Shown: one piece after another, positions 11,941-14,284 of the stretch
How positions within the stretch are numbered: the stretch's first letter is position 1
Layout: each line of letters opens with the position of its first letter
Assembly (NCBI RefSeq): GCF_002924445.1
Contig: NZ_PIGG01000069.1
Location: 1 to 64,000 of the forward strand
From: Minwuia thermotolerans
GTDB lineage: Bacteria; Pseudomonadota; Alphaproteobacteria; Minwuiales; Minwuiaceae
Direction: 5' to 3'
Length of the DNA stretch: 64,000 nucleotides
Program-made: the position numbers and the translations under genes
Notes under the pieces: generated by a model
The model's input: only the letters and a program-made list of their open reading frames with translations
Database searches by the model: none
What the model was told of the DNA's origin: nothing

Positions 11941-13251
11941 CTACTCCGCCGCCGCCTTGAGCACGCGCTGGCTGGCGCGCAGGGCCGATTTCAGATCGTC
12001 GATCAGGTCGTCCGCATCTTCCAGCCCGACCGAGAGACGCACCAGATCCTCGCCGACGCCGGCCGCCTTCAGCGCCTCGGCGTCCATCTGCTGGTGGGTG
12101 GTGGACGCCGGGTGGATCACCAGCGACTTGGCGTCGCCGACATTGGCGAGGTGGGAGAAGACCTTCAGGTTCTCGATGAACGCACGGCCGGCCTCGCGGC
12201 CGCCATTGACGCCGAAGCTGAAGATCGCGCCGGCGCCGTCGGGCAGCAATGCCTTCGCCCGTTCGTGGTCGGGATGGCTCTCCAGGTCCGGATAGGCGAC
12301 CCAGCCGACCGCTTCGTGGCCTTCCAGGAAGGCGGCCAGCCGGCGGGCGTTCTCGACATGGCGCGGCATGCGCACGTGCAGGGTCTCGACACCCTGCAGC
12401 AGGTAGAAGGCGTTCTGCGGCGACATGCAGGCGCCGAAGTCGCGCAGGCCTTCGGCGCGGGCCCGCATGCACAGCGCCGCCGGCCCGTACTCCTCCCAGA
12501 AGTTCAGGCCGTGATAGCCCTCATAGGGTTCGGTGAGCGTCGGAAACTTCCCCGACGCCGCCCAGTCGAAGGTTCCGCCGTCGACCATGGCCCCGCCGAT
12601 GGCGATGCCATGTCCGCCCAGGAACTTCGTCACCGAGTGCATGACGATGTCGGCGCCGTGCTCGACGGGCCGGAACAGATGGGGCGTGGCGAAGGTGTTG
12701 TCGATCATCAGCGGCAGCCCGTGGTCGTGCGCGATGCGCGCCACCGCCGGAATATCCATGATCTCGAGGCCTGGATTGCCCAGCGTCTCGCCGAACACCA
12801 GACGGGTCTCGGGCCGGATGGCCTTCGCGAAGCCTTCGGTGTCGCGGGGGTCCACGAAGGTGGTGGTGATGCCGAAGCGCGGCAGCGTGTGATGGAACAT
12901 GTTGTGGCTGCCGCCGTAGATCGAGGCGGAACTGACGATGTGCCCGCCCTGGCCCATCAGCGTCGAGACCGCCAGGAACAGCGCCGCCTGTCCCGATGCC
13001 GTGCAGACCGCGCCGACGCCGCCTTCCAGCGCCGCCAGTCGCTCCTCGAGGACCGCAACGGTGGGATTGGAAATGCGCGAGTAGATATGGCCGGGCGTTT
13101 CCATGTTGAACAGCGCGGCCGCATGGTCGGCGTCGTCGAAGACGTAGGAAGTGGACTGGTAGATCGGTACGGCGCGGGCGCCGGTGGCCGGGTCCGGGTG
13201 CTGGCCCGCGTGCAGGCCCAGCGTCGCCGGCTTCGGATATTTCGGTTTCAT
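11941..13251 (-). CDS. metY: O-acetylhomoserine sulfhydrylase (MetY type)
   Basis: A 436-residue PLP-dependent Cys/Met metabolism enzyme. MetY enzymes join O-acetylhomoserine with sulfide to give homocysteine, or with methanethiol to give methionine directly. The N-terminus TLGLHAGQHPDPATGARAVP and YQSTSYVFDDADHAAALFN are typical. The PLP lysine is in HSVTKFLGGHG, and RLSVGLEDADDLIDDL is the family C-terminal signature. The ATG at 13251 follows GGGGAGATGCG; a longer open frame to 13305 has no such site. It is the first gene of a six-gene operon and is preceded by a leader with an intrinsic terminator. Confidence 0.93.
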   Translation of the reverse strand: MKPKYPKPATLGLHAGQHPDPATGARAVPIYQSTSYVFDDADHAAALFNMETPGHIYSRISNPTVAVLEERLAALEGGVGAVCTASGQAALFLAVSTLMGQGGHIVSSASIYGGSHNMFHHTLPRFGITTTFVDPRDTEGFAKAIRPETRLVFGETLGNPGLEIMDIPAVARIAHDHGLPLMIDNTFATPHLFRPVEHGADIVMHSVTKFLGGHGIAIGGAMVDGGTFDWAASGKFPTLTEPYEGYHGLNFWEEYGPAALCMRARAEGLRDFGACMSPQNAFYLLQGVETLHVRMPRHVENARRLAAFLEGHEAVGWVAYPDLESHPDHERAKALLPDGAGAIFSFGVNGGREAGRAFIENLKVFSHLANVGDAKSLVIHPASTTHQQMDAEALKAAGVGEDLVRLSVGLEDADDLIDDLKSALRASQRVLKAAAE

Positions 13252-13308
13252 CGCATCTCCCCATGCCGTCGTGGCGGCGGAAAGATCGATACCAGTCTTG
13301 GGCAAGAC

Positions 13309-13344
13309 GAAAAAGAAAAACCGCGCCCGGTGCCCGGGTCGCGG
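13309..13344 (-). terminator. intrinsic terminator inside the metY leader (attenuator)
   Basis: Read on the minus strand, CCGCG/CGCGG and CCGGG/CCCGG arms (13321-13344) form a strong hairpin around a three-base loop. It is followed by TTTTTCTTTTTC. It lies about 60 bases before the metY ATG, and no minus-strand gene is upstream, so it must end either a free small RNA or a regulated metY leader. Confidence 0.75.
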
Positions 13345-13420
13345 CCTTTCACGGAGATCTCCCTCGGGCTTCTATTCCGCCCTTTGTGGTTAGCCGTTCC
13401 CTGTCAAACTCGGCTCCGCG
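13345..13420 (-). ncRNA. candidate structured leader RNA of the metY operon
   Basis: Read on the minus strand, CGGAG (13418-13414) can pair with CTCCG (13356-13352) and encloses two hairpins. These are CCG/CGG (13413-13411 with 13396-13394, 14-base loop) and GGGC/GCCC (13382-13379 with 13369-13366, 9-base loop), giving a three-way junction. An intrinsic terminator follows directly. Leaders of alphaproteobacterial metY, metX and metA genes often carry SAM-II-type riboswitches, but I cannot fit this sequence to the SAM-II or SAM-V pattern. It may be another riboswitch class, a protein-bound leader, or a short stand-alone RNA. Confidence 0.45.
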
Positions 13421-13424
13421 GGTG

Positions 13425-13454
13425 AATTAAGGCGGCTCGAAAATGGACCGTCAA
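13425..13454 (-). promoter_or_regulatory. promoter candidate for the metY leader
   Basis: On the minus strand TTGACG (13454-13449) is followed after 18 bases by TTAATT (13430-13425). The expected start would be near 13418, which is where the foldable leader begins. Confidence 0.45.
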
Positions 13455-13525
13455 GCATACCGCTCGACGTATTTTGACACGCTACAGTACCATCAAGTAC
13501 TTGCCAGTAAGGAGCGAGTCGGATT

Positions 13526-13562
13526 CGGCCGCTCCCTTTGGGGAGGGAGCTGGGAGCGGCCG
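13526..13562. repeat. GC-rich inverted repeat with an overlapping alternative hairpin
   Basis: CGGCCGCTCCC (13526-13536) is perfectly repeated in inverse as GGGAGCGGCCG (13552-13562). The loop contains GGGAGC, which can pair with the GCTCCC of the left arm instead, so two hairpins exclude each other. No T-run follows on either strand. Confidence 0.7.
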
Positions 13563-13783
13563 AGTTCGACAGGGAGGGTGAGGAAGCTGTCTTGTCCTCG
13601 ATACCCATCATGAGGGCGGGAAGTTAACCAAAGCTGAATCACGCTTGCATTTTTCCTCGAAAACGACCGTCAGTTGCACTATTCGGGACGCGTCCGTTGT
13701 CTGAACCGCATGAAACGGGTCAGGATCGGGATCCCGGACGCCGGCGCGACACGAGCCGTCGGCATTGGAGGCGATGCAGGATC

Positions 13784-14284
13784 ATGAACGATCACGCCGA
13801 CCAGCAGACGAATATCACTGTCCGGCTTCCGGCCGGCCCCTTGCGCCGCGTCCATGACTACTGGGCGGCGGGCGTGGCGGACGGCCTGTTGCCCGGCCGG
13901 CAGGACCTCAGGCCCGAAGATCTGACCGACATACTGGGGCACCTGTTCCTGATCGATGCGCCGGAGGCGGGCCGATACCGCTACCGCCTGATCGGCACGC
14001 GGGTGGCGGAATGGTCGGGCGGCGACGCCACGGGCAGGTATCTGGACGATCCGGTCTGCGGGGAAAGCCGCTTCCGGTTCATCGACCTGGTGCACGGCGT
14101 CGTGGAGACGCACCGTCCCATGGCCACGCTCGGCGAACCGGCGATCTTCGGCGGCAGCGCGTTCCTGTTCGACCGTCTGATGCTGCCGCTGGCGGCCGAC
14201 GGCAGGAATGTCGACATGATCCTGGGCGTCGCCGACATGAAGCCGGGGCCGACCGGAGGCGGGCGCCGAAGCCTCAGCGCTTGA
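13784..14284 (+). CDS. PAS-domain protein (PAS_5 family)
   Basis: A 166-residue protein that is essentially one PAS domain of the alphaproteobacterial PAS_5 type. Recognisable segments are LRRVHDYWAAG, DILGHLFLIDAP, YRYRLIGTRVAEWSGGDATG and a C-terminal ILGVADM strand. There is no output domain, so it probably works by binding a partner or a ligand; the role is unknown. The ATG at 13784 follows GGAGGCGATGCAGGATC; the longer frame from 13697 is Arg-rich and unlikely. Its last 11 bases overlap the converging DUF1192 gene. Confidence 0.82.
   Translation: MNDHADQQTNITVRLPAGPLRRVHDYWAAGVADGLLPGRQDLRPEDLTDILGHLFLIDAPEAGRYRYRLIGTRVAEWSGGDATGRYLDDPVCGESRFRFIDLVHGVVETHRPMATLGEPAIFGGSAFLFDRLMLPLAADGRNVDMILGVADMKPGPTGGGRRSLSA

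Follow-up and report, generated by a model that had tools for sequence, protein, structure and literature searches.

A putative sponge RNA for anti-Shine-Dalgarno small RNAs encoded before metY in Minwuia thermotolerans

Introduction

In Alphaproteobacteria, transport and carbon use are set by anti-Shine-Dalgarno (anti-SD) small RNAs (sRNAs), AbcR and SisA/MmgR among them. To our knowledge, little has been described of how these sRNAs are switched off. CrfA of Caulobacter crescentus is reported to mask the core, UUUCCUCCCU, in SisA-D, to reduce SisA and to release its mRNAs, together with Hfq (PMC12559287). In rhizobia, AbcR1 and AbcR2 are reported beside lsrB and carry two anti-SD motifs, and the text available suggests sponges for them without giving names (PMC8844928). 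UpsM of Rhodobacter is a 5'-UTR-derived sRNA of about 206 nt located before mraZ (PMC5089854). Additionally, another family, BjrC80, has been named for Magnetospirillum in a transcriptome paper. Acetylhomoserine and BjrC1505 are not mentioned in the Azospirillum and Magnetospirillum transcriptome papers, and metY is absent from the Azospirillum paper.

Here, a locus before metY is described within a 64-kb stretch of Minwuia thermotolerans DNA, referred to as the window. Its minus strand carries el1, a candidate anti-SD sRNA, and el2, a predicted short RNA whose 5' antiseed is complementary to el1 and to a second sRNA candidate beside a LysR gene. El2 resembles CrfA in its complementarity to the anti-SD core, UUUCCUCCCU, in a group of sibling sRNAs, with one sponge for several siblings (PMC12559287). 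The pairing site of CrfA lies in its second stem-loop, which is G/A-rich, whereas el2 has its antiseed at the 5' end, and in the sections covered, tandem coding with a target is not described for CrfA whereas el2 adjoins one target; moreover, el2 is in most clades little more than antiseed and terminator, unlike the described anatomy of CrfA (PMC12559287). Compared by description, el2 is best read as CrfA-like in its putative function and different in anatomy. The second partner resembles AbcR1/2, as the available text presents them, in lying near a LysR gene and in bearing two anti-SD motifs (PMC8844928), but Rfam does not identify it as AbcR. Like UpsM, el2 would be a transcript that terminates immediately ahead of a gene and may act in trans; UpsM is more structured and its gene link is conserved in Rhodobacteraceae, whereas the neighbours of el2 change (PMC5089854). 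Furthermore, el1 of relatives matches the Rfam family BjrC1505 (RF02356), above the cut-off in several loci that hold the pair, but el2 lies outside that family, the window el1 is unmatched, and many BjrC1505 sites have no el2. No report of an el1-el2 pair was found in the literature searched, outside which lie most subscription papers and preprints.

Organization of the locus

The local order is DUF1192 gene, PAS_5 ORF, el1, el2 promoter, el2, terminator, and metY, and the features are collected in Table 1. The original prediction had placed a promoter, an RNA and a terminator in that order before metY on the minus strand, and this arrangement is borne out by the window sequence. A strict promoter scan scored nothing at 13454-13426, though the site recurs in relatives: of 37 distinct el2 loci, 30 have the pattern TTGA[CT]-N16-19-[TC][AT]NNNT ahead of the antiseed, versus 190 of 7400 control windows. 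As originally claimed, the terminator also has no minus-strand gene directly upstream that would use it, the adjacent ORF being PAS_5 on the plus strand. The terminator stem is invariant across seven same-genus leaders, and other genera have a GC stem with compensatory pairs at the equivalent place. The T-run is followed by 57 nt before metY begins, with no promoter evident by eye, so that read-through from the el2 promoter is conceivable. A DUF1192-like ORF lies nearer el1, and the PAS_5 gene is absent, in the upstream stretches inspected of G004, G005, G006, and G008. No similar DNA turned up in plasmids.

Table 1. Features of the metY locus and its two RNA elements in the window
Feature	Positions	Strand	Details
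Putative el2 promoter	13454-13426	minus	-35 TTGACG 13454-13449, 17-nt spacer, -10 CTTAAT 13431-13426
el2, predicted short RNA	13418-13309	minus	predicted start near 13418, end within T-run
el2 antiseed GCCGAGTTTGACAGGGA	13414-13398	minus	complementary to el1 and LysR-adjacent sRNA
el2 middle hairpin	13383-13365	minus	window's genus only; RNAalifold, 7 genus leaders
el2 intrinsic terminator	13346-13309	minus	GC stem 13346-13321, T-run 13320-13309
metY (Cys/Met metabolism PLP enzyme)	13251-11944	minus	PF01053 (Cys_Met_Meta_PP), 455.2 bits
el1, candidate anti-SD sRNA	13612-13521	minus	predicted ends; ~110 nt upstream of el2
el1 core CCTCCCTGTCGAACTCGG	13577-13560	minus	one of exactly two YCTCCCTGTN{1,3}ACTCGG matches in genome G000
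el1 hairpin GGCCGCTCCC...GGGAGCGGCC	13561-13527	minus	predicted fold; aligns with other el1 terminator stems by eye
PAS_5 ORF	13697-14284	plus	adjacent upstream ORF; domain match
DUF1192 gene	14447-14274	minus	domain match

The size of el2 is about 100 nt in the window and mostly 70-85 nt elsewhere. In other genera, el2 is usually made up of antiseed, an A-rich linker and terminator, which leaves hardly any candidate for an aptamer in between. The three-way junction of the original prediction found no support: the whole single-sequence leader fold is unremarkable (z -1.25; 22 of 200 shuffles fold equally well), and RNAalifold gives the seven same-genus leaders successive hairpins with no closing stem. 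In these seven leaders, the middle hairpin has three pairs with compensatory changes, and three further pairs are disrupted in the window and in G003. In the predicted el2 folds, the antiseed is partly unpaired (median 0.53). The original prediction had also been unable to match the SAM-II or SAM-V pattern, and Rfam agrees: no riboswitch class, these two included, reached its gathering score in the window, and the minus strand of 13200-13700 gave no match up to E 10, three weak plus-strand matches being the only ones. Likewise, no Rfam match named el2 in 12 loci of relatives.

Pairing of el2 with el1 and with a second sRNA

The original prediction had overlooked el1 upstream and its near-perfect complementarity to the 5' end of the leader. 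Among 42,652 24-mers from both strands of the window, the top match of the antiseed is its own complementary strand, and el1 comes next as the best non-self match (-38.0 kcal/mol). None of 2000 dinucleotide shuffles of el2 paired as well with el1. In the antiseed-only control, 15 of the 42,652 window 24-mers reached -34 kcal/mol or below, the complementary strand of the antiseed included. The control with whole el2 is weak, as large parts of the window can pair with the GC-rich el2 stem: of 4000 random 24-mers, 39 were at or below -34.

In several of the relatives' pair loci, Rfam names el1 as BjrC1505 (67.8 bits in L141 and 51.5 bits in L142; cut-off 50). The cut-off is also passed by el1 of G009, G156, G236, and G316, and el1 of L130 stays under it with 29.6 bits. 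The window's own el1 had no Rfam match in the minus-strand search described above, and the el1 model R1 gave it an E of 1.7; it lacks the T-run found in el1 of other genera, and no clear terminator is seen. Judged by its sequence, the window el1 is a degenerate copy. Other identities of el1 were rejected. For mmgR/alphaR8 (RF00519), the scoring sites reached 21.6-34.9 bits with a cut-off of 41, and no el1 lay beside FGase in 30 FGase loci, taken from 66 matches listed across 19 genomes; two CCTCCCTG strings occur there without the el1 layout. For CcnA and EcpR1, both motifs and places differ.

The two matches of the partner pattern in the window's genome are el1 and a site beside a LysR gene, which we take to be VtlR/LsrB, on contig C31. 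Two CCTCCCTG motifs are found in this second candidate, along with a stem and T-run, and the same-genus copies inspected likewise carry two such motifs. The window el2 pairs with it at -37.5, and none of 2000 el2 shuffles did as well. A LysR homologue was present at 11 of the 13 second-partner loci examined (absent in L202 and L206). The AbcR family model is unmatched by the second partner, and the nearest families, SorX and mmgR, stay below their cut-offs. The fit of the antiseed to this second sRNA favours a sponge with several sibling targets over an antisense RNA directed at a single neighbour.

Partner preference was assessed over 37 distinct pairs, identical pairs having been dropped first, in a test that ignores relatedness. 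The mean for own partners was -29.1 versus -25.6 on re-pairing, and none of 20,000 re-pairings was as good; with 27 representatives, the values were -29.0 versus -25.1 (0 of 20,000). The own partner ranked from 1 to 35 of 37. In the same-genus genomes G004-G008, own pairing is poor and el1 has lost part of the match; for instance, el2 of G004 reaches -30.6 with the LysR-adjacent sRNA versus -19.1 with its own el1. In six other genomes, pairing of el2 with its own el1 and with the second copy differs by at most about 5 kcal/mol.

Distribution in relatives

Inspection of 14 metY loci by eye placed both elements before metY in the window's genus (G000, G003, G004, G005, G006, and G008) and in G009 and G036. 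Only el1 stands there in G015 and G001, and the remaining loci have neither. In G007, the metY contig ends too soon, and the el1-el2 pair sits on another contig (L004).

The el2 model, R2, was trained on 24 el2 sequences from other genera, leaving out the window's genus. Within the window, its best match is 13306-13418 on the minus strand (20.8 bits, E 2.7e-4, filters off); under the stricter whole-genome filters, it had no match in G000. Of 387 genomes of the class, 112 were matched at E 0.01, although many weak matches may be chance. The 30 strongest class matches (E <= 5.5e-7) come from 30 genomes in 13 families, 11 of these genomes having supplied training sequences. At 22 of these 30 loci, the 450 nt upstream include a complementary CCTCCCTG element. 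No el1 was found upstream at seven, two of which were misread, and the el2 of L228 stands at a contig end; the place read was wrong in L228, L230, and L236.

Only 12 of the 30 strongest loci have metY within about 1.5 kb downstream. Among the listed el2 loci without metY, a HIBADH-like, DUF1465, Hsp20/rpmE-like or acyl-CoA-synthetase-like gene comes next in some, and the flank is often similar (DUF1013-, quinone-oxidoreductase- and DUF1192-like ORFs) with a different gene downstream. Gene names around el2 loci were partly read by eye, since the automatic ORF calls there at times took a frame on the wrong strand: DUF1465, DUF1192, PAS_5 and Cys_Met_Meta_PP rest on domain matches, and acyl-CoA synthetase, HIBADH, Hsp20, rpmE, DUF1013 and quinone oxidoreductase are labels that we assumed or gave by eye.

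A scan of named genomes, from which the best 80 metY loci were taken, covered Kiloniellales, Rhodovibrionaceae, Ferruginivarius, Azospirillum and other Alphaproteobacteria. R2 matched upstream of metY at E < 1e-5 in 16 of these 80 loci, 13 of the 16 having been used in building R2; R1 did so at E < 1e-4 in 16 of 80, of which 15 had been used in building R1. In Azospirillum (L061, L071, L097, and L100), el2 is directly before metY and no el1 was detected there; the partner may lie elsewhere in the genome. Moreover, 90 el1-like sites were checked for a downstream partner, and 25 had a duplex with z <= -2.9. TTGAC stands at the promoter place in 21 of the 25, and the other four (L158, L149, L278, and L312) resemble GC-rich chance. 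In L155 and L314, el2 is visible by eye with a weaker z, and the rest of the 90 show none. A tandem partner thus accompanies just a part of these anti-SD sRNAs.

Discussion

The stretch 13454-13309 on the minus strand probably encodes a short non-coding RNA with the role of a sponge, or decoy, of BjrC1505- and AbcR-like sRNAs. A sponge is proposed owing to the complementarity, the apparent promoter of its own and the little that el2 has beyond antiseed, linker and terminator. It would be transcribed from its own promoter and end at its own terminator, and its 5' antiseed would pair over about 16-20 bp with the anti-SD core of el1 and, likewise, with the second, AbcR-like anti-SD sRNA beside the LysR gene. 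The duplex would mask the core that otherwise covers ribosome binding sites, and the pairing would probably cost one or both RNAs, thereby freeing mRNAs. We infer the involvement of Hfq, RNA turnover, pairing in the cell, and which RNA controls which. Promoter, terminator, conservation, complementarity and co-variation support the sponge at the sequence level. Against it count the poor pairing of el1 in G004-G008, the strongest loci without el1 (7 of 30), the partly paired antiseed and the unclear terminator of the window el1. In the proposed scheme, metY most likely just happens to lie next to el2, although transcription from the el2 promoter may run on into it.

The main rival is a dual role in which el2 is also the leader of metY or of another downstream gene: most transcripts would end at the terminator and serve as the sponge, while read-through would change on pairing with either el1 or the sRNA beside the LysR gene. 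The 57-nt, seemingly promoterless distance to metY and the Azospirillum loci, with el2 directly before metY and el1 not found, favour such a leader. It is nevertheless considered unlikely, given that the downstream genes vary by clade, that inspection by eye showed no convincing antiterminator, and that most el2 are antiseed, linker and terminator only. Complementarity has no direction, and both RNAs have promoters and terminators in most clades; the roles might accordingly be reversed, el2 regulating other targets through its antiseed while el1 soaks it up or is degraded with it. This reading appears quite improbable, since el1 belongs to a wider family of sRNAs with an anti-SD core, mostly found without el2, whereas el2 usually comes with el1 (22 of 30).

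Still less credit is given to the new riboswitch or attenuator class of metY raised in the original prediction. A metabolite riboswitch would suit the succession of promoter, structured leader, terminator and methionine gene, as well as the compensatory changes in the middle hairpin within the genus, but it is very hard to reconcile with the lack of an Rfam match, with metY being downstream in only 12 of the 30 strongest loci, with other genera conserving the antiseed but nothing like an aptamer, and with a conserved part that is antisense to an sRNA core. The other option then offered, a short stand-alone RNA, does fit. Chance complementarity, or an inverted repeat working at the DNA level, can draw on GC-rich 24-mers of the window with comparable energies, 15 of the 42,652 lying at -34 kcal/mol or lower. 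It is already disfavoured because the element, with its promoters and its co-variation, comes back in 13 other families, and it is scarcely credible.

On the sponge reading, a broader scheme can be put forward tentatively, with the odds somewhat against it: a widespread alphaproteobacterial two-RNA module in which a BjrC1505 anti-SD sRNA, frequently preceded by a CtrA-like box, is accompanied by a co-evolving tandem sponge that would also titrate an AbcR-like sRNA, one locus thereby setting several global anti-SD sRNAs. If the sponge reading is true, a conserved RNA carrying the complement of the anti-SD core would be a concrete and easily testable off-switch in many genera. Furthermore, a co-varying sRNA-sponge pair would make partner specificity readable from sequence.

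Additional observations on el1 sites

Tandem el1-like copies about 200 nt apart, without el2, occur in L138 (G331) and L143 (G192). With or without el2, el1 is often near a DUF1465 gene (L192, L194, L195, L196, L338, L339, L138, L143, and L146); PF07323 was confirmed for one of these genes, and some stand beside an rpmE-like ORF. DUF1465 is presumably RcdA-like, and RcdA is a factor in CtrA turnover. The window el1 has a half site, TTAAC, at about 13627-13623, and the strict CtrA-like pattern is absent there. Among the 37 pairs, 20 have that pattern (TTAA-N7-TTA[AG], in either order), which we take to be the CtrA consensus, in the stretch from 160 to 60 nt before the el1 core, versus 219 of 11100 control windows; examples are L130, L080, and L128. 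The enrichment of CtrA-like boxes suggests that el1 may be under cell-cycle control.
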